Source: Obelidium mucronatum
Taxonomy: Eukaryota > Chytridiomycota > Chytridiomycetes > Chytridiales > Chytriomycetaceae
Assembly: GCA_025765595.1 (NCBI GenBank)
Contig: JAIVFH010000625.1
Location: 1-12,260, forward strand
Direction: 5' to 3'
DNA: 12,260 bases
In this document: in pieces, positions 235 to 12,260 of the stretch
How positions within the stretch are numbered: the first letter of the stretch is position 1
How the letters are laid out: each line of letters starts with the position of its first letter
Position numbers and translations under genes: made by a program
Notes under the pieces: model-generated
The model's input: only the letters and a program-made list of their open reading frames with translations
Told to the model about the DNA's origin: nothing
Databases searched by the model: none

Positions 235-3200
235 CTATCTACGAGAGCGCGCTTCCATTCTTTCTTCCCTTGTAGACTGTGGTGGAGCTGCCGGTTTGGC
301 TTGTTGCTTCCGTCTCCGGGTGGCAACTGTCACTGAGACTGCAGATGTACCTTCTGCACGTTCCATTAGAACGGGTCGAGGCAGTGGCTCAACTTCCTTC
401 CTTTGTTTGGCAACCCAGCGAGAATAAGTTCCCCACCAAGCATTCTTCTGGTCCTTCATTTGTTTCCAGAATTCGTCAAGGACTGCTTGTGGCATGTCCT
501 CCTGGCGCTGCATCCACGCATGCCTAATAGGCTGGTCAAGTCCTTTAACTTTGTACACAAAACTACCCTTAGGGTCTCGATCTAACATGACCTCAAGAAC
601 ACGTTCAATGACAATCTTTGGGTCCTGAATATCACGTTCCTCAAAGTCAGGGTCTAATTTACGGGCTAACCAAACATTGGTCCCAGCCACTTTGCTTTTG
701 TGAGAGTGTACAGGTCTCTTTTGGAGGACCTTGGATTTCTTCCATCTTTCAAGCTCGGCTTCAAAATCATCACCTGTATTTTGTGCAGCTTTCTCAGCTG
801 AGTCTGTAGGGACACGAGCCGTAAAAGGTCTCAGTCTACTGACATGAACTGTCCTAAAAACAATATCTCCACCAGGGAAGGTTTCAACAACTGTGAAACG
901 GGTTTGAGAACTACCCCCTCTCTGTGCTACAATGCGCACAGGTCCTACCCATCGATAAATTAGTTTTTTAGTAACACCTAGTCTCTGGGCTTCACTAGCA
1001 AGAGGCACAGAGAGCCAAGCTCTATCACCCAGTTTAAAGCTGTATGCAGCTTGGTCTTTGTTTTCAGACTGCTCTTTTTGAGCTTCTTGCCTTTTAGCTA
1101 CCTTTGCCTTAATGATTTCTTGACGTATTCTTAAACCGTCAAGGATTTTCCTCAAAGTGATAACCTTCTGTTCCTCTGTCGAGGGTCTGATAGTCTCAGC
1201 CTCCTCCTCCAGGATAGACGTTTCAAAGACAGCCTCCTTACTTTCATTAAGAAAGACATAGTTAGGCGGGCACTCATCCATTTCTATAGCGCAAATGGGA
1301 GTCCTGATTACAACAAACTTTCCAGAATTCTCCCAAAGAGGCTCATTCCAGAAAGACAAAGGGTTATCCTTCAGAGGGTTGTACAACGTCCTCACATTGT
1401 CAACGTATTTACCTCCTGGTTTATAACAACGAAATGTACATGAAAGGACATTAGCAGCAGCTAAACTTAAAACAGGGGTTTTGATGTCAGAATCAACATC
1501 ATCAAGAGAGGTGACTGCTGGACCAATATCCAGTACTTTGTCTCTACTATAAACAACAGAAATTCTCTCAGCTGGTTTTCGCTGAAACTTTACAATAGGG
1601 TCATCATCCTCCGGATTCAAGCGATAGACATGGTCCCTTAGAGAAACAACAGAGCCGTTGTTAAGGTAAAAATACCCCGGAAAATCATACTTTGATGTTT
1701 TCTTAGCACGAGGGTCAAAAGATATACACAAGACATCGAGTTTGAAATGCTCAAAGACATCTTTCAACGTGATAAATAGCTTCTCGTCCTTGTGGAAACC
1801 GTGAATTTGCTTACAGCATTTATCCTGAAATTGTTTTAGGCTACTAAACTGTGCCACTGCAATTTTTGGAAATTTGTACTCATCCCAAGCTTTACCACAG
1901 CCCCATGAACATACAAAAGACTCTATCTCTTCATCCTCTTCTGAGATGGGGACTATATCCCTAATGGCCTGGGCCGGTTTAGGATACAAGGGGTCATCAG
2001 GACTGATGCCAAAGAAGGCATCAGAGGGTAGACGTGCATCACGGCCATGATACATGAAGAAAGGTGTTTCGCTAGTTGACGAGTGAACATGTGTGCAATA
2101 TGCAAACAGAATGAAGGGTAGAATATCATCCCAATTATTAAAATCATACTGATTAATGTAAGCTCGTAACTCCTGGGATAAGGTCTTGATTAACCTCTCC
2201 ACAGGTCCGTTAGCCCGGGGCCAGTATGGTGCTGTGAAGGTTTTATAGAACCCCATCACCTTACTCACTTGTTTCATTAAGTCATCGTCCAATGGAGGGC
2301 CGTTATCTGAATGAACAAATACAGGTACCCCCGTTCTTGTAAACACTTCTTTTACCAAGGCTTCGCAAACAGTCTTGGCAGACAAATTAGGCAAAGGAAC
2401 TGCTTCAGCCCATTTTGTGAAACTGTCTACAATTACCATGACATACCGATTGTGCGAGGCTGACTCAGTCAGGGGTCCCATGAAGTCAACAAAGACTCTT
2501 TCCCAGGGATACTCACCAAGTGGAATAGGATGCACAAAGCCAGTCCTAGCTGCATAATCCTTAGACTTTTGGCAATCCTCGCAAGACTGGATATGGTTTT
2601 TCAAATCACTTATAATGGAGGGCCACCAAAACCTGTCAAGTAATGAGGGTAGGATTTTGGAAGTACCCAAGTGGCCACTGAACAAGTCATCATGATGCTT
2701 TTCTAAGATCTCCCTTCGAAGACCATCTGGTACACACAATGCTATTCGGCCAGGCATACGACGCATAGTAGCAGAAGCTATGTCTGAGACACGGTATAAG
2801 AGCCCTTGATTATCCAACACTAAATACTTTGATCCTAAGGCCATCATCTCAGGCTCCTTGTTTTCAGGAACAATACCTTCTTCCCGATATCTAATAATGG
2901 GTCCAAAAATAGGATCTGCAAGCTGAAGTTCACGAATGCGCTTAGTGTCAAAACCAAAGAGAGGTAATGTAGTGAAACCCAAGTTGCACTCCAGGAATTC
3001 AGATTGATATGTTGCATAATCCCCCCTTGTCATTTCAGGAGAGACCCAATCGGTTTTTTCTACAGCACCAAAGTCGAGTTTTAAGTGATCTAACTTGATA
3101 TCAGCTCGCAGGCGTAAGTGGTCACTCATGTTAGTACTAGAGTCCACTCGAACATCAAAATAACAAGGCTCAATACGTTTATCAATGAGTATATGGTCAA

Positions 3201-4452
3201 TTCTCCAGAAAGGATACTCCTTTTGGTCCACGGTCTTTAAGGTCCAGGTTCCCCCCATATCCAAAGGGTGCTTAACTCTAAAGCTATCATGGAAATTGTT
3301 AAGCATGGACGCAAACCATTCTTGCTCAACTTTGGTTATAGTTGAACGAAATCGTTCAGTGAGACATTCCTCCATCACAAACAGAAGTACATCCTTATTG
3401 GAGGGGGCTATATTGAAGTCGCCAGTGGCTATAACAAGGTGTGTTTCCTGTAGTTTGCTACAATGCTCCTTGAAACTGTTTAGGAATTGCAGTTTATACT
3501 CCTGCCTTTCATCTGTACGCATACCACTAGGAATGTAAGCAGTTGTCACTGCTACTTCTCCAATTGTTAAAGTAATAATTCGACCCTCGTCCTCAGCTCT
3601 GGAGTTGTACATTCCATTTCGAATGGAACTCTCCTCAACTTGATGTGCAAGTTCGCGTCGCCAAATGATGGCAACACCTGCATACCCCAGGGTTTTGTCG
3701 TTAAAGTGACAATTCCACTCTTCAAGTTTGCTCATAGCTTCAAATAATTTCTTACTTTTGTTATCAGTGCCCATCCGCGTCTCTTGGAGGCAGATGATAC
3801 TGCTTCCCATTGAGTTGAAGAAGAGCGACAATTGTTTGTCAACAGCTTCTTTATCCAGCTTGTTTTCTTTAATGTACTTTTTTAGTAACTGTCTTAATCC
3901 ATTGATATTCCAAGTCACTACATTGAGGCTATGTCCCTCAGCCTTAAAAGGCTTTACAGGTTGTTTTGGCACCTTTTGTAGATCTGTCATAGATTTGATT
4001 CGATTATCTTTTGAGCGGTTTATTAGAATGCGTTTGGAAAGATCGCTAATTAGCTTCTGAGTTTCATCAACCGCTTCTCCCACCAGTGTTTCATAGTGGT
4101 GCAAATATTCTTTCTTTGCATATTCCAACTCATAGTGTGAGCGGTTACCCTTTAAGCCATAAATTAATGCTTGAGTCATCGAAATTAATGGGGGTAACTC
4201 AACCCCTTGGTCATTCTCTGACCATTTACCCTCTTTTTCAAGAATGAAGTCATCTTTGAAACAAAATGATGTTTCTGCGTTGGTAGTTTCAACTTCTTCT
4301 GGCAGTTTAACATTGGAGTGAATGTTCACCCTGGATAAGGTGTCAGCCACAATTTGGTTTTTTCCTGCAACATGGGTGAGAGTAATGTTGTAATTGCTTA
4401 GGGCATAAGCCCATCTAGCAAATCTACCGGTTAGTTCACCTTTCTTAAACAA
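235..4452 (-). CDS. pol: Pol C-terminal part: RNase H end, ExoIII/APE endonuclease, integrase, insertion, chromodomain
   Basis: A 1405-residue open frame. Residues 1-41 are the end of an RNase H, finishing with the ADTLSR motif. Residues 177-460 are an ExoIII/APE-type endonuclease (separate entry). Residues about 586-627 form the H2C2 zinc module of integrase (H586/H587, H594, C624, C627). The integrase core has D656, D716 and E752, with 35 residues between the last two (DD35E). Residues 838-1094 are an unidentified insertion. Residues 1095-1210 resume the integrase tail, with a GPY/F-like WVGPVRIV stretch near 1168. Residues 1279-1332 resemble a chromodomain, followed by a basic tail. The ATG at 4452 is simply the first Met after an in-frame TGA at 4492-4494; the same frame upstream continues RNase H, so this is one piece of a longer Pol and not an independent gene. 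It integrates reverse-transcribed DNA, and the chromodomain presumably steers it to chromatin. Confidence 0.9.
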   Translation of the reverse strand: MFKKGELTGRFARWAYALSNYNITLTHVAGKNQIVADTLSRVNIHSNVKLPEEVETTNAETSFCFKDDFILEKEGKWSENDQGVELPPLISMTQALIYGLKGNRSHYELEYAKKEYLHHYETLVGEAVDETQKLISDLSKRILINRSKDNRIKSMTDLQKVPKQPVKPFKAEGHSLNVVTWNINGLRQLLKKYIKENKLDKEAVDKQLSLFFNSMGSSIICLQETRMGTDNKSKKLFEAMSKLEEWNCHFNDKTLGYAGVAIIWRRELAHQVEESSIRNGMYNSRAEDEGRIITLTIGEVAVTTAYIPSGMRTDERQEYKLQFLNSFKEHCSKLQETHLVIATGDFNIAPSNKDVLLFVMEECLTERFRSTITKVEQEWFASMLNNFHDSFRVKHPLDMGGTWTLKTVDQKEYPFWRIDHILIDKRIEPCYFDVRVDSSTNMSDHLRLRADIKLDHLKLDFGAVEKTDWVSPEMTRGDYATYQSEFLECNLGFTTLPLFGFDTKRIRELQLADPIFGPIIRYREEGIVPENKEPEMMALGSKYLVLDNQGLLYRVSDIASATMRRMPGRIALCVPDGLRREILEKHHDDLFSGHLGTSKILPSLLDRFWWPSIISDLKNHIQSCEDCQKSKDYAARTGFVHPIPLGEYPWERVFVDFMGPLTESASHNRYVMVIVDSFTKWAEAVPLPNLSAKTVCEALVKEVFTRTGVPVFVHSDNGPPLDDDLMKQVSKVMGFYKTFTAPYWPRANGPVERLIKTLSQELRAYINQYDFNNWDDILPFILFAYCTHVHSSTSETPFFMYHGRDARLPSDAFFGISPDDPLYPKPAQAIRDIVPISEEDEEIESFVCSWGCGKAWDEYKFPKIAVAQFSSLKQFQDKCCKQIHGFHKDEKLFITLKDVFEHFKLDVLCISFDPRAKKTSKYDFPGYFYLNNGSVVSLRDHVYRLNPEDDDPIVKFQRKPAERISVVYSRDKVLDIGPAVTSLDDVDSDIKTPVLSLAAANVLSCTFRCYKPGGKYVDNVRTLYNPLKDNPLSFWNEPLWENSGKFVVIRTPICAIEMDECPPNYVFLNESKEAVFETSILEEEAETIRPSTEEQKVITLRKILDGLRIRQEIIKAKVAKRQEAQKEQSENKDQAAYSFKLGDRAWLSVPLASEAQRLGVTKKLIYRWVGPVRIVAQRGGSSQTRFTVVETFPGGDIVFRTVHVSRLRPFTARVPTDSAEKAAQNTGDDFEAELERWKKSKVLQKRPVHSHKSKVAGTNVWLARKLDPDFEERDIQDPKIVIERVLEVMLDRDPKGSFVYKVKGLDQPIRHAWMQRQEDMPQAVLDEFWKQMKDQKNAWWGTYSRWVAKQRKEVEPLPRPVLMERAEGTSAVSVTVATRRRKQQAKPAAPPQSTREERMEARSRR
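457..618 (-). other. Degenerate chromodomain at the integrase C-terminus
   Basis: Residues about 1279-1332 show the chromodomain pattern: IVIERVLEVML, a short turn, FVYKVKGL, then a helix-like ending with VLDEFWKQM. Chromodomains at this position define the chromovirus clade and target integration through binding to histone marks or other chromatin proteins. The tryptophan normally found in the VKW motif is absent, as in the group II chromodomains of some LTR retrotransposons that lack a full aromatic cage. About 70 residues follow, rich in Arg, Lys and Pro. Confidence 0.6.
1171..1941 (-). other. Unidentified ~255-residue insertion in the integrase C-terminal region
   Basis: Residues about 838-1094 of the same frame separate the integrase core, which ends in the usual GRDARLPSD stretch, from the RQ-rich helix and LGDRAWL segment that normally follow within a few tens of residues. 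The insert starts with an acidic run, then a Cys/His-rich stretch (C848, C852, C879, C880, H884, H887) that could bind zinc, although the spacing is not that of a classical C2H2 finger. It continues with mixed alpha/beta-looking sequence and ends in an acidic EEEAET region. I do not recognise the fold. It has no stop codons, so it was probably maintained as coding sequence. Confidence 0.6.
3073..3924 (-). other. ExoIII/APE-family endonuclease domain within Pol
   Basis: Residues 177-460 of the 1405-residue frame match the class II AP endonuclease (Xth/APE1) branch of the EEP superfamily. Motifs appear in order: WNINGLR (N182), CLQETR (E224), GYAGVAI, AYIPSG (Y306), GDFN (D345, N347), WRIDHIL (D419) and SDH (D444, H445). 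These correspond to the family's Mg-binding, phosphate-binding and His-Asp catalytic residues, and none is missing. A segment near 374-392 resembles the EE.WF...L....D.FR stretch typical of ExoIII relatives. Family members cut DNA 5' to abasic sites and often have 3'-phosphodiesterase or exonuclease activity. LINE retrotransposons use a distant relative to nick target DNA, but here the surrounding polymerase is clearly Ty3/gypsy. Residues 42-176, between RNase H and this domain, are an unidentified linker. Confidence 0.88.
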
Positions 4453-4491: not shown

Positions 4492-4494
4492 TCA
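4492..4494 (-). other. In-frame TGA inside RNase H
   Basis: The stop lies between the WVFG end of the upstream frame and the ITIETDH stretch that continues RNase H in the same frame; the third RNase H aspartate codon is at 4471-4473. It interrupts a folded domain and is not at a domain boundary. A point mutation is the simplest reading; programmed readthrough is the alternative. Confidence 0.85.
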
Positions 4495-5823
4495 ACCAAA
4501 TACCCATCTGTCAAAGGTATTTACAGCCCATACACATGCAAGACCTTCACGATCTGTGTTGGAATATCTCTGCTCCACTTCAGACAATGTCCGTGAAATG
4601 AAAGCAACAGGTTTTCTGGATGACTTAAGGCCATCTTTGCTCTTAAGATAAAGTGCAGCTCCCAGCGCATGCTTAGAAGCGTCACATTTGATAATAAATT
4701 CATTTACATCACCAGGTTCCTGTGATGGATCAACAAGGACTATGTCTTGCTGTAACTTTGATATAAGCCCTTTAAAAGCTTCATTGCACTCAAATGTCCA
4801 ACTCCAAGCTGTATCAGCTTTCAATAGATTGTATAATGGCAATGCTATGTGTGTGAAGTTCTTCACAAACCTCTTGAAATAATTGGCAAAACCAAGGAAA
4901 GACTGCAATTGCTTCACATTGCGTGGGGCTGGCCAATTTTCAAGCTTAGTGATTTTGCTGGGGTCCATGCGGATTCCATCACGAGAAAGAACATGACCTA
5001 AGAAAGGTAATTCTGTAAAGAAGAATTGACATTTTGAAGGCTTAATCTTTAAGTTGTATTCTTGCATTCGCTCAAGAATCATCTCAATGTGTTTGAGGTG
5101 CTCATCAGCATCATTAGAGAATATAATGACATCATCTATATAAACCATACAGAATAAAAATGTATATCCTGCAAGTACAACATCCATCAAGTGTTGGAAG
5201 GAGGGTGGGGCATTTGTAAGGCCAAATGGTAACACTTCAAACTCATAGAGGCCTTGGGAAGAGATAAATGCTGTTTTCTCCTTACTGCTTTCAGCGAGTG
5301 GGACTTGCCAAAAACCACTTTGTAGGTCAACACTGCTGAAGTACATTTTATGCCCGACAATCATAAACACATCAGTAATGTTAGGCAGAGGATACCTAAA
5401 AGGTACGGTAATATCATTAATTTTTCTGTAATCCACACAGAAACGCCAACTGCCATCAGGCTTCTTGGCCAATACAACGGGGGAAGAATATTGTGATTTT
5501 GAGGGGCGGATAATTCCATCTTCTAGCATCTTCTGAATATGCTCTCTCAAAATCTGCATGCGCCCAGTTCCTTCGGGGTATGGCGCTGAATGGGGTGCCA
5601 GCGCACCTGGCTTTAGGTTGATTTCATGTGGAGGGACATCTTTAGTTCCAGATTTCATGTACTGCGAAAATACAGCACGATATTTAAGAATTAGAGTAAT
5701 CAATTTGTCTTTAATGTCCTTCCTATCAAGGGCATCAAGGTTTAAATTTAGCAAGGAGCTCTTCGTTTGTTTTTGCATCCTCTTCAGGCTCATAGTATTG
5801 TTAATCTTCTTTTGAGGTATCAT
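4492..5823 (-). CDS. pol: Pol middle part: reverse transcriptase and N-terminal RNase H
   Basis: A 443-residue frame. Residues about 105-285 are a Ty3/gypsy reverse transcriptase. The catalytic aspartates are D166 (SSVDLQSGFWQ) and the YIDD box at 228-231, with the LPFGLTNAPPSFQ motif at 198 and FLGHVLS near 274. Residues about 290-360 are the thumb/connection, including LQSFLGFANYFKRF. RNase H starts near 375 with D381 (KCDASKHALG) and E426 (DREGLA). It stops at a TGA inside RNase H and resumes in the same frame in the next block. The ATG at 5823 overlaps the end of the protease frame by 23 bases and lies in a different frame. The first 20 or so residues do not look conserved, so the true junction with the protease frame is probably near 5738-5750. 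It copies the element RNA into DNA and degrades the template. Confidence 0.92.
   Translation of the reverse strand: MIPQKKINNTMSLKRMQKQTKSSLLNLNLDALDRKDIKDKLITLILKYRAVFSQYMKSGTKDVPPHEINLKPGALAPHSAPYPEGTGRMQILREHIQKMLEDGIIRPSKSQYSSPVVLAKKPDGSWRFCVDYRKINDITVPFRYPLPNITDVFMIVGHKMYFSSVDLQSGFWQVPLAESSKEKTAFISSQGLYEFEVLPFGLTNAPPSFQHLMDVVLAGYTFLFCMVYIDDVIIFSNDADEHLKHIEMILERMQEYNLKIKPSKCQFFFTELPFLGHVLSRDGIRMDPSKITKLENWPAPRNVKQLQSFLGFANYFKRFVKNFTHIALPLYNLLKADTAWSWTFECNEAFKGLISKLQQDIVLVDPSQEPGDVNEFIIKCDASKHALGAALYLKSKDGLKSSRKPVAFISRTLSEVEQRYSNTDREGLACVWAVNTFDRWVFG
5735..5803 (-). other. Stop codon plus frame change between protease and reverse transcriptase blocks
   Basis: The protease frame ends at a TAA (5801-5803). 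Past it the same frame stays open for about 20 plausible acidic codons and then ends near 5733. The reverse transcriptase frame becomes protein-like at about the same place, close to a short A/T homopolymer run at 5741-5750. The pattern fits a nonsense mutation and a separate single-base indel. A programmed frameshift at the run is possible but would not bypass the TAA. Confidence 0.6.
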
Positions 5824-7036
5824 CCATTGGGATTGAATTCATGATGACGTTTCTTTCTGCCATAGGAAATTCTCCAAGGTTGGAAACAAACTTACGAATG
5901 CGCTTCCTAGAACGTAAAACTTTCCTTGGTATGTTGGGTACCAACTCACGCAAGTTATAGATCTCCCTGACCCTAGGTGGGGCAGCAGTTGGTGGAACTA
6001 TAAGGTCTAATTCGTCAGCAGTAAACACTAAAGGTATGAAATCAATGTCTTCTTCCTCTTCTTCTAGTTGAACATCTAAAGAGGGCATTTCAAGAGGCTC
6101 CTCCTGGGAGTCAAGTGGTATGGTCTCTCCAAGTTTGTTCTCCAAATGAGTATAGAACGACACAGTGTCAGCAGGCTGTGCCAGAGTAACCTCCATCTGC
6201 ATGTGAGCCAAGGCCAGTTGATCATTAGCAATTGCCATAGGGACTTCGACAGTATTAACTTCGTATTGTCCTCCACCCTCAACAAGTGCAATGGTCATAG
6301 AGCTGGGTAGGTGGAGACTTTTCTTAGTACCATGGTAAAAAACCTTCAATTCTAAGGGTCCCTTGAGTAGTTCTTCAGATTCTACAACAAGCTTAGGGAA
6401 GAATATCCCCTTCTCTAACAATTCAGGGATAATGTTAACAAATATCCTTTTATCTAAACGCAATTGGCTGATATCCGTTTCGAAAGGTAAACGAATTTTA
6501 ATATCGGCTTGTCTGTTCTTGGGGATGACTACATCCTCGTCCAAGTAGAGTTCATGGAGAGCACTCTCCGGAGTCAATTCTACAGGCAAATTAGTGTAGT
6601 ATTCCAAAGGAGCACATTTGCGCGGCAAGGGGTTTGCTTTCACCTCAACAGTGAGCGACTCCAAACCCAGTTCATCGTCACTACAGGTATAGTGCTTGCG
6701 GGATGCAGTAGGACTTTCAGGTGGTCCCCAAAAAATGCAATCTGATGAGAAACAAATGTCTATCTCAAAGAGATCACACTCAGGTGTACCGAGCAGTACA
6801 CCTCGAGGACATTCAGGTAATAAAGTATACTTTACAATTTTACTTCCTCCAACACTAGATTCACCAAGATTCGTTTTAACAAAACAGTACCCTAAGACTG
6901 GAACACGTCCTCCTATACCACGGTTTGTGATGTTACGCGTTTCTTTGTAGAATAAGTGACTCTTAGGAAGTCTTTGGAAGAAATTCCAATCCATAACACT
7001 GTGATTGCTACCTGAATCTATCAGTAATTTGTCAAT
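5801..7036 (-). CDS. pol: Pol N-terminal part: retropepsin-like aspartic protease and linker
   Basis: The frame is open from 7036, just after a TGA, to the TAA at 5801-5803; its first ATG is at 6994. The protease active-site motif DSGS is at 7018-7007, upstream of that ATG, so an ATG start at 6994 would lose the catalytic aspartate. Counting from the ATG, GVLLGTPECDLFEIDI at about 65-80 is the second conserved protease strand (the ILG region). From residue about 150 to 245 a beta-rich stretch (IPKNRQADIKIRL, then VFYHGTKKSLHLP and IALVEG) resembles the region between protease and reverse transcriptase in many Ty3/gypsy elements. The last 100 residues are acidic and include LEEEEEDIDFIPL. The protease would process Gag and Pol. 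The frame runs on from the Gag knuckle ORF. Confidence 0.82.
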   Translation of the reverse strand: MDKLLIDSGSNHSVMDWNFFQRLPKSHLFYKETRNITNRGIGGRVPVLGYCFVKTNLGESSVGGSKIVKYTLLPECPRGVLLGTPECDLFEIDICFSSDCIFWGPPESPTASRKHYTCSDDELGLESLTVEVKANPLPRKCAPLEYYTNLPVELTPESALHELYLDEDVVIPKNRQADIKIRLPFETDISQLRLDKRIFVNIIPELLEKGIFFPKLVVESEELLKGPLELKVFYHGTKKSLHLPSSMTIALVEGGGQYEVNTVEVPMAIANDQLALAHMQMEVTLAQPADTVSFYTHLENKLGETIPLDSQEEPLEMPSLDVQLEEEEEDIDFIPLVFTADELDLIVPPTAAPPRVREIYNLRELVPNIPRKVLRSRKRIRKFVSNLGEFPMAERNVIMNSIPMDDTSKED

Positions 7037-7039
7037 TCA
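7037..7039 (-). other. In-frame TGA just before the protease active site
   Basis: The Gag knuckle frame and the protease frame are the same frame, separated only by this TGA. The residues before it (GVATVNAWVGGV) look like the first beta strand of the protease and the residues after it lead straight to DSGS. The stop therefore cuts the protease domain and is not a clean gag/pol boundary. Mutation is likelier than programmed readthrough, although gag-pol readthrough at a single stop is known in some retroviruses. Confidence 0.8.
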
Positions 7040-7897
7040 AACACCACCAACCCAGGCATTCACAGTAGCAACACCGTACAACTGTTTTCGTGAGTTCTTT
7101 TTAATAGCGTTTCTCATAAAGTTGTTGTAACTTTTTGAGGGATCAGTACAGAGCTTTGTTGTTGCATAAGAGTTGTCCTCAAATCTAGCCATAACAGAAT
7201 CATTAAAACAAACAGCCTTTGGTCTAGTTAGTTTCTTGTCTTTGAGGGATAATAAGATGACGCTCTTTTTGTGTCTCAGCGGCAAGGGGAGTTGTGGTTT
7301 CACCACAACTTTCCATTGGTTCCTTAATGAAGGTTCATCCTGAGCCTCCAGTGCAAGGGAGTCGCTAAAATCCTCAATAGTTCCTTCCATTTCAAAAGAA
7401 AGTGAGAGGAGGGGTTTATCCTTAAGTGAATTGCAAGTTGAGGCTCCACTCAACTCCAATGTGCCGTTTACTTCATCACATGTAACACACTCAACGACAT
7501 CAATTTTATTTGAATTAAAACAGCCATCAGCTCTAGAAATATTTGAATGGTCAAACATCGGTGACTCTGAAGCCTCAATAAAATTGGAAGAAAACTCAGT
7601 AGAAGAAGGGACTTGGGGATTCTCTGTGTTTAAAACATCTTCAATAATTTCCTTAATTATATTAATAACTTCAGTCTTACAAGAAGGTTGATTCTTGGGG
7701 CATTCAGGATCGCGGCTCATATGCCCCAAACCACCACAACGGTAACAGCAAACTTTCTCCTTAGTAAAGCGAGAGCGTTCCTCCACATTCATGTAGGTCA
7801 TAAATTCACAGAGTTTAGCTTCTTCCGCTTCACTCGCAAGATCATCTATATGATCCGGAGAAGTTTCCAACTCACTAATGTTGGTTTCCTGCTTCAA
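7037..7897 (-). CDS. gag: Gag C-terminal part with CCHC zinc knuckle
   Basis: A 286-residue frame. A zinc knuckle lies at residues 51-66 (C51, C54, H59, C66), beginning CYRCGGLGHMS; the last spacing is six residues instead of the usual four. The knuckle would bind the element RNA during packaging. It is preceded by an acidic segment and followed by about 170 Ser- and acid-rich residues with no recognised domain. The last dozen residues look like the first protease strand. The frame is open upstream to a TAA at 7976-7978, adding 26 codons that look continuous with the coding sequence, so the ATG at 7897 is not a convincing start. It probably belonged to one Gag(-Pro) frame together with the capsid-like ORF to its right, from which it is separated by that TAA and a frame change near 8025-8050. 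Confidence 0.75.
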   Translation of the reverse strand: MKQETNISELETSPDHIDDLASEAEEAKLCEFMTYMNVEERSRFTKEKVCCYRCGGLGHMSRDPECPKNQPSCKTEVINIIKEIIEDVLNTENPQVPSSTEFSSNFIEASESPMFDHSNISRADGCFNSNKIDVVECVTCDEVNGTLELSGASTCNSLKDKPLLSLSFEMEGTIEDFSDSLALEAQDEPSLRNQWKVVVKPQLPLPLRHKKSVILLSLKDKKLTRPKAVCFNDSVMARFEDNSYATTKLCTDPSKSYNNFMRNAIKKNSRKQLYGVATVNAWVGGV

Positions 7898-7975: not shown

Positions 7976-8050
7976 TTAAAGTATGCGGGGCGCATCAGGA
8001 GTTCTCTCTCGCGCGCTCAAAGACTTAGAAGCCAAAAGTCGCTCCATATT
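7976..8050 (-). other. Stop codon and frame change inside Gag
   Basis: The capsid-like frame ends in a TAA at 8025-8027. Another frame is open across the same place and runs to a TAA at 7976-7978, after which it continues openly into the zinc-knuckle ORF. Capsid and knuckle are normally one Gag protein, so a frame change near 8030-8050 plus a nonsense change at 7976 is the simplest reading. Confidence 0.5.
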
Positions 8051-10265
8051 GGAGATACGATTCGCGACTAGACTTATTCTCTAATTTTGATGAACTAGAT
8101 TTAGCAGACATCCCTTGACCGCGCAAGTATTCTGCAATGTCACGCACAGACACCTGAGGGTCTAGGTAGTCAAGGCGACCAACACCAGGTACTGAAATAG
8201 TAGTGTGGATGACTTTAGTATGGAATCTTTCGTAGTCCCTACGAAGGCCCGAAAGGTAGGAGTTTTTTAACTCAGTATTAGTGAAGGGCATTGCAAGACG
8301 TCCATTCATCAATTCCAAATATTGTTGTTCCAATATAGCATCGGCTGAACTCCATTTCCACAAACTAACCGCTTCACGGTGTCTAGCAACAGTCTCAGGA
8401 TTGTTAAAAACTTCTTTGAAGTAGCGTTTGTAGGAACTAAAGGTGGAATCCACCTCCATAAATTCAAAGAATCGGTTTGCGGTTGCATCACCGGCAACAC
8501 CACACATAACCAAAGACCTAATAACTTCATCTTGAGAATGGTACGTAGCATTTGCACCAATTTGCTGGGTCATAACTGAGTCAATAAACTTGCCCCATCT
8601 CAGAGCCGAATCATTGGTCAATAAAATTTTCTTCAATGTGGCCAAGTTGGTCTCGTGAGCCGATGAAACCATTTGGTTCTCTCTGAACGCGTTTTCAAAA
8701 CCAACTACGTTGATATTGACAGTTCCCGGTGCTGAATTGGTGGCAGCGGCTGCTGTCCCCCTATTTTCCGAAACGCCCGCATGACTGCGGGGAGGCATCG
8801 GACGCGTTTCTTCCTGCTGTCTCGCGTTTTCAACACGTAAGCGAATAGTTGCACGTCGCGTAGCTAGATTAGTACCGGCCATGTCGAAGGTGGTGTAGTT
8901 GTCCGGATGTCCGATACCCAGCGACAACTCCGCAAACGCGGACTGATCAACCTCTGTATCCTCATCCAATTGGGAGAGGTCACGAACCATTTCCATGAGG
9001 CGGTCGTAGTCGTATGGTTCAGGGTAGGTTTCTTTGAAGTACGCGACTGCATTCCAAAGACAGTAATACAGTGTCTCTTTGTGCTGTGCTGAGAGCTCAC
9101 GGCCGTTCCTAGCCCACTGCACTTGTGGTGATTCAGACTTGACAATCTTCAAAGTCCTCGTCATGACGTCAAACTTGACTGTGTCTTTATTGTTTTCAAG
9201 CCTAGGACGCAATCGTGATCGCGTTGAATAAAACAAGGAAGTTAATCCCACAATGATTAAAATAATCATGATAATAATGAACAGCGTTAAGATGCTGTAG
9301 ATCAGGAAAGAGAGACTCACAACATATGGGTCTTCGCGATGTGACAATTCTGGATTTATTAAACCACCAACCACAGGCAATCCTGCCAGAGTCACCAGAA
9401 ACAATCCAAATAGGTTGACAGATAATATTATTCTTAAATACAAATTAACCATTATTCTTAGTACATTTAGACAAGGTGTGAATCCTAACACGTTCAAAAA
9501 AGCTTTTATTTTCGAATTGAAACTACACAAAGTAAGTTTGAAACAGTTAATTATTGTTTCTTCTGCCCTCACGGCGATAATAACCACCATCAACAGGATT
9601 TCTGTTTGCGTCAGTGCTCTCATCATCTGATGGGAAATAAAGTAAAATATTACTAAAAATACCACATATTTGCGAGCCATACCGCGGCGGCGTTTTTCAG
9701 CGGCTTTTGCAGCGCGATCGGCATTCCGCTGTTTGTTCATTGTCGCGATGAAGCTTACGTGTGCGACGGCTTCCTGTTGGATGTCCACAGGTCCCTGGTG
9801 AGAGCGTTCGCGCACATCATTCAAGAAGTCTGTTTTCTCGCGAGTGCGACGTTCCCAGCTTTGCTGACGAAAAATATCCCTTTCTATAGTTTTGGGGAAT
9901 GTCAGTGGGTATGAGACAATAATACGGTATAAAACCGTAAAGCAGACAAGCTGCACGCGGATCAAAGCCGCGAAGTGGCAGAATACCACAAATAGTAATA
10001 AAAAAGTATATTTTGACTCTTCACCAAAAAAAAATTTTTTCCCTTTCTTTGTGAAGACGTGTCCGTGAAGAGTACGTAAATATTCAAAATAATAATAGGC
10101 CAGCCCAAATTTATTTAAGATATAATTGACCTCTTCACCCCCTGCCATCTCCCATCGTTTCAGGCGCAAAAGTCTTCGAAAACCATCCCAAAAACTGCCA
10201 ATGCTCTCGGCCACAAGGAATCCACACGGCACCAACGTCGCAGTAATTGCTCGCTCTTCCGGCAC
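8025..10265 (-). CDS. gag: Gag-like protein: hydrophobic multi-segment N-terminal part, capsid-like C-terminal part
   Basis: A 746-residue open frame. Residues about 530-715 look like a Ty3/gypsy capsid: mostly helical, with ALRWGKFIDSVM, a phenylalanine-rich RFFEFMEVDSTFSSYKRYF stretch and WKWSSADAILEQQYLELMNGR. Residues 368-500 are polar and resemble a matrix-like N-terminus. Residues 40-350 contain several hydrophobic segments (about 87-122, 199-233, 265-300, 313-347) separated by basic or charged loops such as KAAEKRRRG, suggesting a membrane protein. Candidate starts are the ATGs at 10148 (residue 40), 9740 (176) and 9164 (368). A conventional Gag would start near 9164, but the frame is stop-free for about 370 codons before that in AT-rich DNA, which is hard to get by chance. 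Alternatives: the N-terminal part is 5' LTR or leader sequence open by accident, or contains introns. Confidence 0.65.
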   Translation of the reverse strand: MPEERAITATLVPCGFLVAESIGSFWDGFRRLLRLKRWEMAGGEEVNYILNKFGLAYYYFEYLRTLHGHVFTKKGKKFFFGEESKYTFLLLFVVFCHFAALIRVQLVCFTVLYRIIVSYPLTFPKTIERDIFRQQSWERRTREKTDFLNDVRERSHQGPVDIQQEAVAHVSFIATMNKQRNADRAAKAAEKRRRGMARKYVVFLVIFYFISHQMMRALTQTEILLMVVIIAVRAEETIINCFKLTLCSFNSKIKAFLNVLGFTPCLNVLRIMVNLYLRIILSVNLFGLFLVTLAGLPVVGGLINPELSHREDPYVVSLSFLIYSILTLFIIIMIILIIVGLTSLFYSTRSRLRPRLENNKDTVKFDVMTRTLKIVKSESPQVQWARNGRELSAQHKETLYYCLWNAVAYFKETYPEPYDYDRLMEMVRDLSQLDEDTEVDQSAFAELSLGIGHPDNYTTFDMAGTNLATRRATIRLRVENARQQEETRPMPPRSHAGVSENRGTAAAATNSAPGTVNINVVGFENAFRENQMVSSAHETNLATLKKILLTNDSALRWGKFIDSVMTQQIGANATYHSQDEVIRSLVMCGVAGDATANRFFEFMEVDSTFSSYKRYFKEVFNNPETVARHREAVSLWKWSSADAILEQQYLELMNGRLAMPFTNTELKNSYLSGLRRDYERFHTKVIHTTISVPGVGRLDYLDPQVSVRDIAEYLRGQGMSAKSSSSKLENKSSRESYLQYGATFGF
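10109..10126 (+). promoter_or_regulatory. Possible TATA-like element for the divergent plus-strand gene
   Basis: An AT-rich stretch containing TTTAAGATATAATT lies about 75-90 bases before the first plus-strand ATG at 10201. Only its composition and distance support it, and it also lies inside the minus-strand open frame. Confidence 0.15.
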
Positions 10266-11479
10266 TGCTATGAATCCTACAGCAGCGGTGCTTCAGACAT
10301 CCCCGGAGCAAGTGCAACCCCGTAGACGAGGCCGCCCGTCAAATTCTCAAAGATTTGGGAATTCTCCGGGTTTTACTTCAGTGTCAACAAGTTCATCAAG
10401 GAAGCGGAAGAGAACCACCAGTGACGTCAACACTCACAGTCTCGGACATGGACAAAATACAAGTTCTTCCAACAATGAAACCGCCAACGCCGAAAGCAAC
10501 CCTGGGGAATATGTCCCGCCGCTTATCGAGGAGGAGGAAGAAAATGAATCAGACGGTGAAGACGAATATGGCGACGATGAAGTAGCAGCGAGACTTCACT
10601 TTAATGAGCAACTAGCGCTTCGAGAGCAATCTGACTGGGCCCACAATCAACAAAAGGGAACCAAGATTTATTTGGAACATCAAAAGGAATATAAGGTAAT
10701 CAGTTTGTGGTATTGGAAGTTCTAAGTTTCTAACGGCATATGAATATTTTCACAATTTCAGACTTGGTGCCATGAACAACAATATCAAGATGAATATGTG
10801 AATGAAAATCGATTGCTTGTATTTCTCAAGACCATTCAAAACCGTGGCCTCAAAACCCGTGGCCGAAAGTCTGTGAATTCTTTTCAAAGACGGACAACCA
10901 GAAGTATAGCAGGCAAGATCACAACAATAGAACGACGAGATAAAAATGGAAAAGTGATATACCGCCATCCTGATTACGATGCAATTGTCAACGGTAGATC
11001 GGATCGAACATTGAGCCATCATTCAATCAAGGTGGTTGTTAATGCTCTTGTTCATCTTTATTTTTGGCAAACCACAGACATGGTATTATTGAATTATTAT
11101 TATTTATTACATTATTTTTATTATTTTTACTCCAACGTTAATTAATTGATTGAATCAGCCAAAAAATCCACATCCGTATCCCCGAGGCCCCACAATAAGC
11201 AGTTTTTTGAAAGAACACAAGCAGAATTCACTCCAGAAACACAAGCCGCAAGATTGGATAGTTTGGGAATCGAAGACATACGATGAGAGGTGGGCAAACA
11301 AAGATTGGGAGAAGTTGACGTTGGGACTCCTGGCCCAAAAGAAGTTCACTGAGCTTGCAACGCTCCACGTTGACAAACAAGCCGTTGCAAGACATCAGCT
11401 GGCTCGTGATTGGCACTGGAACGCATTTTTGTACACTCTCTGGAACGGGAAAGCGTCACTGGAGGAGATGTTGGTTTAG
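10201..11479 (+). CDS. Ndc10/Crypton-type tyrosine recombinase-like protein, exons 1-3
   Basis: Three exons (10201 or 10270 to 10695, 10762-11082, 11159-11479) join in phase 0 across two introns to give about 355-378 codons. The N-terminal 100 residues are low-complexity: an AT-hook-like RRRGRPS, a basic KRKR, then an acidic EEEEENESDGEDEYGDDE run. After it, spanning the first intron, comes a core-binding region (HQKEYK, then TWCHEQQYQDEYVNENRLLVFL), then TLSHHSIKVVVNALVHLY and, across the second intron, NPHPYPRGPTISSFLKEHK. This is the pattern of the DNA-binding part of fungal Ndc10-like proteins and Crypton recombinases. The frame ends at a TAG (11477-11479), where the catalytic part should continue, and recognisable family motifs carry on in other frames. 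The ATGs at 10201 and 10270 are both plausible starts. It is divergent to the retroelement Gag frame and overlaps it at the 5' ends. Confidence 0.6.
10696..10761 (+). other. Intron 1 (66 bp)
   Basis: It begins GTAATC and ends TTTCAG, with a CTAAC branch-point-like sequence at 10730-10734. Removing it in phase 0 joins HQKEYK to TWCHEQQ, restoring the helix pattern of the family. Without splicing the frame meets a stop soon after the donor. Confidence 0.75.
11083..11158 (+). other. Intron 2 (76 bp)
   Basis: It begins GTATTATTG and ends GAATCAG, and is very AT-rich with ATT repeats. Phase 0 splicing joins the LYFWQTTDM end to PKNPHPYPRGP, the conserved HPxPRG region of this recombinase-like family. 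The unspliced frame stops inside the intron. Confidence 0.75.
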
Positions 11480-12260
11480 TGATTTTAGTTGGTCGCACAA
11501 ACGAATCCAAAACAACCACTTCCAAAGAGCGGAGCATTTCGCCTTTTTTCGTCATAGAGATGTAATGAGCTGTGCATGGGGTTGGATTGTTGAATTACAG
11601 GTTTGTTTTACTATTTTAAACTCCAAATTGAACTTACACTCCATTAAGGCTCGTGGAATGTATTCGGAAATAGCGGGAATACATGGCAAGAGCCGGAGGT
11701 GTCGAAACGAGAATTATTCTACAAAGAAAAAGTGTTGGGGAATCCGACTTACAGCAAAATGTACAAGACACTGGATGAACTTAATGAAAACCAGCGGTAT
11801 TATATCAAAATATTCAATACAAATTTTATGTCGAATTTCGCATGTTATAATTTTAAAACTTAATTGCTCTTTATTTTAGAAAAAGCGCATCTCAGCCGAG
11901 TCAGCGGAAATATGCTGATGCTGATCGTTCTGTGGATCCAGGAGCTATGAGCCTTGCAGCGCGCAACAACTGGACTCGCAGCTAACATGCTACCAGTTTA
12001 GTTTTTCGTGCCCTGCATCACGGGTTGCTTGCCAACTGGGAAAAGGAATCAGGTAAAAAGCACATGAATGAAGCACCACTCAAACATAAAAAATAGGGAC
12101 ATAATAACTGTCTGCGGGAACTCACAAAAGTTCCGGAGGAGCTGCTAAAATTGGTCTTTGATTTTCTCGATCGAGAAGAAAAAGTGAAAGAAACATCGAA
12201 ACTGGACACTATGACAATGCTTTGGCAGCGAAACCGCAATATCAAGCTCGACTACAAAAG
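11440..12260 (+). pseudogene. Decayed catalytic part of the tyrosine recombinase-like gene
   Basis: Short family-like stretches continue but change frame several times. LERESV...VILVGRTNESK starts at 11440 in a frame one base off exon 3. FRHRDVMSC near 11555 is in the third frame. ELFYKEKVLGNPTYSKMYK near 11708-11765 is shifted again. A possible HxxR box, HLSRVSG, begins at 11889. KYADAD..VDPGAMSLAARNNW from about 11909 is shifted once more, and a candidate catalytic tyrosine codon is at 11991-11993. PEELLKLVFDFL near 12134 resembles the usual C-terminal helix. Possible further introns are 11601-11648 and 11797-11879, both with GT...AG ends. Repeated one-base shifts and several stops argue for a pseudogene. 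Homopolymer indel errors in the assembly are the alternative. The gene may continue past the window. Confidence 0.5.

Follow-up and report, generated by a model that had tools for sequence, protein, structure and literature searches.

We have identified a complete ExoIII/APE1-type nuclease domain (endonuclease/exonuclease/phosphatase, EEP) in the Pol of a Ty3/gypsy retrotransposon, where it lies between RNase H and integrase, and we consider its identity and its conservation to be nearly certain. The domain, its place, its reading frame, its catalytic residues, the LTRs, the constraint on its sequence, and its repeated occurrence in this position, both in diverged subfamilies and in a second source, are all directly supported. 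Retrotransposon classes are commonly told apart by whether they have an AP endonuclease or an LTR-type integrase, a rule that is broken where one Pol conserves both as a fusion; the pairing is not standard for LTR retrotransposons. As a whole explanation, we propose that a conserved repair-type nuclease in a gypsy Pol may act on the element's own cDNA, and we give this reading a probability of about 0.5.

The window, that is the whole stretch of DNA analysed, is contig C625 (12,260 bases) of a 48.3-Mb genome, in which a small-subunit rRNA gene on one contig matches the Rfam eukaryotic model. On the minus strand of the window, a Gag-like region with a CCHC knuckle, a protease-like region, reverse transcriptase (RT) with RNase H, and an open reading frame at 235-4452 follow one another. 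The Gag-like coding part (8025-9170, within an open frame at 8025-10265) was assigned by its place only, with the start of its frame unsure and no firm Pfam family, and the zinc knuckle (7709-7750) matched PF00098 with 21.4 bits (cut-off 20.8). In the protease-like region (5801-7036), a DSG motif was read by eye at about 7010-7018, and the Pfam scan of ORF 5801-6994 gave no match. RT and the first part of RNase H occupy 4495-5823 (PF00078, E=6.4e-37; PF17919, E=2e-21) in ORF 4492-5823, which ends inside RNase H with an in-frame TGA (4492-4494) whose 40-nt context is identical in two copies of the element on contig C182 (copies a and b). The other in-frame stop of the window copy, at 7037-7039 before the protease, is also a TGA on the minus strand, and the frame changes near 5801-5823.

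The frame at 235-4452 (minus strand; 1405 aa, P0001; stop at 235-237) holds the end of RNase H, a linker, the EEP domain, the integrase, an insert and a long C-terminus. The RNase H end and the poorly conserved linker lie at 3925-4452, the linker being 24-27% identical between subfamilies versus 53-60% in the EEP domain, which is encoded at 3073-3924 (aa 177-460). The integrase follows with an H2C2 zinc-binding domain at 2560-2733 (PF17921, aa 574-631, E=5.9e-19), found at the same place in the genome-wide set of H2C2 matches, and with a catalytic core at 2224-2496 (rve, PF00665, aa 653-743, E=5.8e-9, 36.6 bits, cut-off 32.6). A conserved insert of about 310 aa (1045-1995), 35-36% identical across subfamilies, leads from this core to the C-terminal module; no fold was assigned to it, its predicted model (pLDDT 43) being too poor for a fold search. 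Its counterpart in P0025, a metagenome protein described below, has about 510 aa and a weak aspartyl-protease-like match. The C-terminal module (451-1044), which we take to be GPY/F-like, has a degenerate chromodomain-like end, and residues 1102-1334 of P0001 are 42% identical to residues 1399-1629 of P0025.

This element resembles Ty3/gypsy elements (Metaviridae) in its LTRs, CCHC knuckle, RT, RNase H, H2C2 and rve in the gypsy order, and in an RT nested among gypsy-type Pols, but differs from them by the ExoIII/APE1-type domain inserted into the RT-RNase H-integrase order and by the insert after the integrase core. The preliminary description had compared it with chromoviruses. The Ty3/gypsy assignment stands, but chromovirus status is unproven, with no Chromo match in P0001 and a sub-threshold one in P0025 (23.8 bits, cut-off 25.1).

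The EEP domain matched the Pfam profile PF03372 over its full length (positions 1-225 of 225; P0001 aa 179-445, E=3.8e-15), with H2C2 and rve in the same reading frame, and it contains the signature of the ExoIII/APE1 nuclease family (catalytic N, E, Y, D-x-N, D and D-H). Several statements of the preliminary description were borne out: a complete domain between RNase H and integrase, a DD35E integrase in the same uninterrupted frame (with the D-35-E spacing counted by eye on the translated P0001), stop codons elsewhere in the copy, and the catalytic residues, of which all eight (N182, E224, Y306, D345, N347, D419, D444 and H445) were correct when each was checked by position. The best match to solved structures was Arabidopsis ARP (E=1.8e-19, PDB sequence search), and the predicted fold is that of ExoIII/APE1 across residues 1-279, the whole domain; on these two grounds, the resemblance is not due to chance. 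The relatives among PDB sequences were of the repair type (ARP, XthA, NApe, Mth212 and APE1), the 54 matching PDB sequences at E<=1e-3 included no LINE endonuclease, and repair enzymes led among the best 50 rows when the model was compared by fold. The preliminary description had presented such domains as a hallmark of LINE elements. An EEP domain is indeed present in this gypsy Pol, but by sequence and predicted fold it is of the DNA-repair ExoIII/APE1 kind, and therefore a LINE-like use is not implied. It shares the full-length domain, the predicted fold and all catalytic residues with ExoIII, APE1, NApe and Mth212; those are free-standing cellular enzymes, whereas here the domain is part of a polyprotein.

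At the catalytic Asp, the window clade has W-R-I-D and the aligned repair enzymes have W-R-I/L-D, and the sister lineage (families B, D, F and G) has F or M where the window clade has the Trp. From what is known of APE1, we take this Trp to line the abasic pocket. Because of its replacement, the EEP substrate in families B, D, F and G may differ from that of the window clade. A LINE origin of the domain was also considered and is unsupported by the PDB sequence matches; two LINE-like EEPs from the same genome had very long branches (5.7-6.7 changes per column in the first EEP tree) and were too diverged to place. Three loci of this genome (L044, L046 and L054) are LINE-like elements with strongly diverged EEP domains.

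Searching the genome with the EEP domain gave 30 places, including that of the window. Copies at 98-99% occur at three places, two on C182 and one on C128, and the EEPs of C33 and C601, the only two of the next group that were aligned in full, are 54 and 55% identical to that of the window. An EEP match, whole or partial, lies just upstream of H2C2 in C33, C601, C183, C649, C77, C305, C132, C191, C473 and C140. Among 94 integrase H2C2 matches in the genome, 17 have a same-strand EEP less than 1 kb upstream (323-837 bases), in the order RNase H-EEP-IN sought by the preliminary description, and 13 have an EEP 1.9-3.3 kb upstream, in the order EEP-RT-RH-IN; these counts come from positions only and take in near-identical contigs of the same locus, and because only the best candidates were scored, they are minimum values. 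The other 64 of the 94 have no EEP within 4 kb upstream, and therefore the majority of the host's gypsy elements manage without the domain.

Pfam scans showed the order RNase H-EEP-H2C2-rve in L009, RT-RNase H-EEP with H2C2 in the next frame in L026, EEP-RT-RNase H-H2C2 in L019, L024 and L025, and EEP-RT and RNase H-H2C2 divided between two frames in L021. The rve match was below the cut-off in L019 and L025 (23.2 and 20.1 bits versus 32.6), and none was reported for L024, L021 and L026. The loci L019, L020, L021, L024 and L025 (C26, C10, C85, C151 and C493, respectively) represent Ty3/gypsy families with the EEP before RT, a LINE-like order. Outside this genome, one of 97 integrase-sharing proteins also has PF03372. 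This is P0025 (1710 aa), from a metagenome contig of 6,438 bases, with the Pfam order RNase H, EEP, H2C2 and rve, and it is 38% identical to the window Pol in a single 846-residue alignment spanning the EEP.

Between the EEPs of subfamilies A1 (window), A2 (C33) and A3 (C601), no codon has been gained or lost over 284. Their pN is 0.30-0.32, compared with 0.20-0.22 in the integrase, 0.49-0.54 in the linker before the EEP and 0.45-0.47 in the insert after the integrase. A dN/dS comparison across copies, as the preliminary description had proposed, thus finds the EEP below its linker in pN, but the ratio itself is not reliably computable because synonymous sites are saturated in the EEP (pS 0.79-0.88). 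An alignment of nine diverged retrotransposon EEPs (A1, A2, A3, P0025, B, two of D, F and G) has 29 invariant columns out of 284, which include all eight catalytic residues.

Damaged copies also occur. In copy b (L003, C182:50270-51121), the second copy of the window element, Asn replaces the catalytic Asp345. C132, C191 and C473 (L015, L016 and L017) have lost the N-terminal part of the EEP through a shared gap, so that their matches start at residue 108-121, and C649, C183, C77, C305 and C140 have stops inside the EEP match. Because such copies exist, the EEP domain may be supplied in trans or may be dispensable. The suggestion of the preliminary description that the domain was functional recently is supported by its relatives, since the C33 copy has identical LTRs and an open RNase H-EEP-IN frame, but not by the window copy, in whose sister copy b one catalytic aspartate is gone. 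The frame of C132 and C191 is open from the EEP gap through the integrase (1179 aa). In the C33 copy (L009, C33:140600-148500), a 2.2-kb open frame upstream of the open RNase H-EEP-IN frame gave no RVT_1 match, and this copy was possibly mobilised in trans.

On C182, the sequence just beyond window position 1 recurs four times: copy a has it on the minus strand (18796-19789 and 35358-36351), and copy b on the plus strand (41386-42379 and 53936-54923). These repeats are LTR pairs of about 1 kb or more, their edges being those of the repeating part of the query, and the last one (53936-54923) is cut by the contig end. Copy a is the same locus as the window and is surrounded by its LTR pair; since C182 also matches the far flank of the window (99%), C625 is another copy of the C182 locus, probably from the other haplotype. 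LTR searches restricted to the window itself or to 12 loci 6-8 kb long gave only a 27-nt pair (78%) and, in one locus, a 124-nt pair, respectively, because the LTRs lie outside those stretches. In C33 (subfamily A2), the LTRs show no difference over 971 bp, have TG..CA ends and are flanked by ACAG on either side, which is an integrase-type footprint; such ends and the short target duplication were seen for this related copy only. Also in A2, LTR matches were found at both ends of C183, C132, C473 and C191, and at the end that its contig reaches for C77. In family F, all four copies with a 1432-aa frame (C151, C10, C295 and C93) have LTR-like repeat pairs 8.2-8.3 kb apart, for which the remaining stretches were too short to fix the ends. 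The EEP-bearing elements with LTR pairs are integrase-type elements.

For the RT tree, 98 rows were prepared and 53 were used (eight from this genome plus 45 of the 90 homologues, taking every second one); the homologues had been gathered with the integrase of the window, so that the sampling is biased. The window group A (A1-A3, three rows) was nested among gypsy Pols that have no EEP, and B, D, F and G formed a separate clade (100/100), in which D, F and G, with the EEP before RT, form one clade and B, with the EEP after RNase H, stands beside it. The EEP-bearing RTs are thus apart in the free tree, but a single clade of all of them was not rejected (p-AU 0.436). The first EEP tree had 35 rows. 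The second had 24, with 14 rows dropped (12 exonucleases near-identical to kept ones and the two LINE rows) and three PDB chains added. Without LINE rows, A with P0025 (100/98) and B-D-F-G (100/100) were firm, and all nine retrotransposon EEPs joined against the repair enzymes with weak support (73/88), ARP being the only eukaryotic APE1/Apn2-type member included. The tree envisaged in the preliminary description therefore sets the retrotransposon EEPs against repair enzymes to this extent, but not against LINE endonucleases, whose rows were too diverged. Either one capture followed by a move within Pol or two captures would fit these trees. Tentatively, and with more doubt than belief, we suggest an ancient, single acquisition of a repair-type ExoIII/APE nuclease by a Ty3/gypsy branch, which then retained it in both deep lineages even as its position in Pol shifted (after RNase H in A and B, before RT in D, F and G). 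Such elements would possess a repair nuclease besides their DDE integrase, both cutting DNA, and would use the nuclease to clean the cDNA or to prepare the target, a strategy not described for LTR elements in the literature searched.

In the mechanism that we prefer, the EEP would be an active enzyme that reaches the virus-like particle as part of Pol. Its substrate would be the element's own cDNA, in which it would incise abasic or damaged sites, or trim 3' ends, before insertion, and integration itself would still be carried out by the DDE integrase. Taken by itself, this cDNA-repair step is plausible, at somewhat under even odds. Another role in the same process, rather unlikely in our view, is that the EEP mainly repairs or tailors the integration junction, or serves as an extra exonuclease or RNase H in plus-strand synthesis, and does not act on abasic sites. 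The activities of ExoIII-type enzymes include 3'-phosphatase, 3'-5' exonuclease and RNase H, and these, with the place of the EEP directly between RNase H and integrase, favour such a role; the W-R-I-D kept at the catalytic Asp in the window clade is a point against it, but nothing in the present data separates it from cDNA repair.

More improbable still is that the EEP nicks target DNA as LINE endonucleases do, for target-primed reverse transcription or site choice, with the integrase as a helper. On the one hand, families D, F and G have the LINE-like EEP-RT order with an integrase core below the Pfam cut-off or not reported, and the available text of PMC5718144 gives AP endonuclease as the typical endonuclease, and as a domain combination, of non-LTR elements; the EEP before RT in these families fits target nicking as well as cDNA repair, and therefore keeps this explanation alive. 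On the other hand, C33 has TG..CA ends and a short direct duplication, the F and A families have LTR pairs, and the relatives of the EEP are repair enzymes. A captured host repair gene retained as a passive spacer or passenger, with no role in transposition, would account for the copies with a damaged EEP, but it is very improbable given that the length is kept across three subfamilies and all eight catalytic residues are kept in nine aligned representatives, including P0025. As for a chimera, made in assembly or cloning, between a gypsy element and an APE gene or a LINE, which the preliminary description had named as a possible undoing of its claim together with the lack of other copies, we found no point in its favour; it is effectively ruled out because many contigs of the genome and the separate metagenome contig of P0025 share the arrangement, and the domain recurs at this place in other copies, in other subfamilies and in that 38%-identical protein.

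For the preferred cDNA-repair role, a functional parallel may be seen in the dUTPase of non-primate lentiviruses, which sits in the same pol slot between RNase H and IN and, as a DNA-hygiene enzyme, helps keep uracil out of viral DNA, although it differs in enzyme and chemistry (PMC4531489, parts available). LINE elements with AP endonuclease share an EEP fold and an RT per element, and the EEP-RT order with D, F and G, whereas the present elements have LTRs, an integrase and a repair-type EEP; the window element, with its EEP after RT, its LTRs and its integrase, does not have the LINE layout. Among LTR elements, the Troyka-like Kuafuorterviruses also bear comparison: in the text available, Exo_endo_phos is "only present sporadically in Kuafuorterviruses" (PMC11673190), the only statement on EEP in LTR elements met in the literature searched. 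Theirs are animal elements defined by [I/V/L]ADD in place of YXDD in RT, whereas here the EEP is kept across families, and the window RT has YIDD and lacks [I/V/L]ADD. As far as the accessible texts go, other LTR elements have likewise taken up extra enzymes, although as separate ORFs and of other kinds: orchid Ty3/gypsy elements have fixed an AlkB-type demethylase ORF (PMC9289625), and bdelloid rotifer elements have an extra ORF3 of DEDDy or GDSL type, not a domain between RNase H and integrase (PMC5408684).

Further accessible passages report complex fungal elements with additional domains, among which EEP is not named (PMC3248453), Exo_endo_phos in elements of Symbiodinium, where the figure legend concerned covers both LINE and DIRS types (PMC5890265), and an unclassified element of a fish W chromosome that weakly resembles EEP (cited in PMC9025612); PMC3391268 merely used an EEP profile, and the text seen of PMC12440569 has no occurrence of endonuclease. 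A conserved EEP between RNase H and integrase in LTR elements was thus not met in the open literature searched, in the parts available; this does not show its absence from print, since most subscription papers, preprints and Repbase lay outside the scope. These elements warn that an EEP match alone is unsafe for classifying elements. They also provide a natural setting in which to test if LTR elements depend on base-excision repair of their own, and the intact-EEP and damaged-EEP copies in one genome are material for such a comparison.

A protein search with the EEP part of the full-length Pol gave 921 candidates, with 0 at E<=1e-3. In scans of viral contigs, the count was 0 of 52 stretches with the window-clade EEPs and 0 of 18 with the sister-clade EEPs, and a mixed EEP alignment gave 20 stretches, with four loci at 22-29% identity that are suspected to be bacterial exonuclease. 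Upstream of gag and outside the element, another repeat (10003-12260, plus strand) is nested in the window copy; copy b carries a different sequence in that position, and copy a has its 5' LTR beyond the repeat. The window edge at 10010 was rejected as the end of the element, as the C182 LTR data make it the edge of this nested repeat. Its open frames gave no firm Pfam match, and its relatives are found at 97-98% on C23 and C2, where the copies begin at this point, and at 72% on C138.
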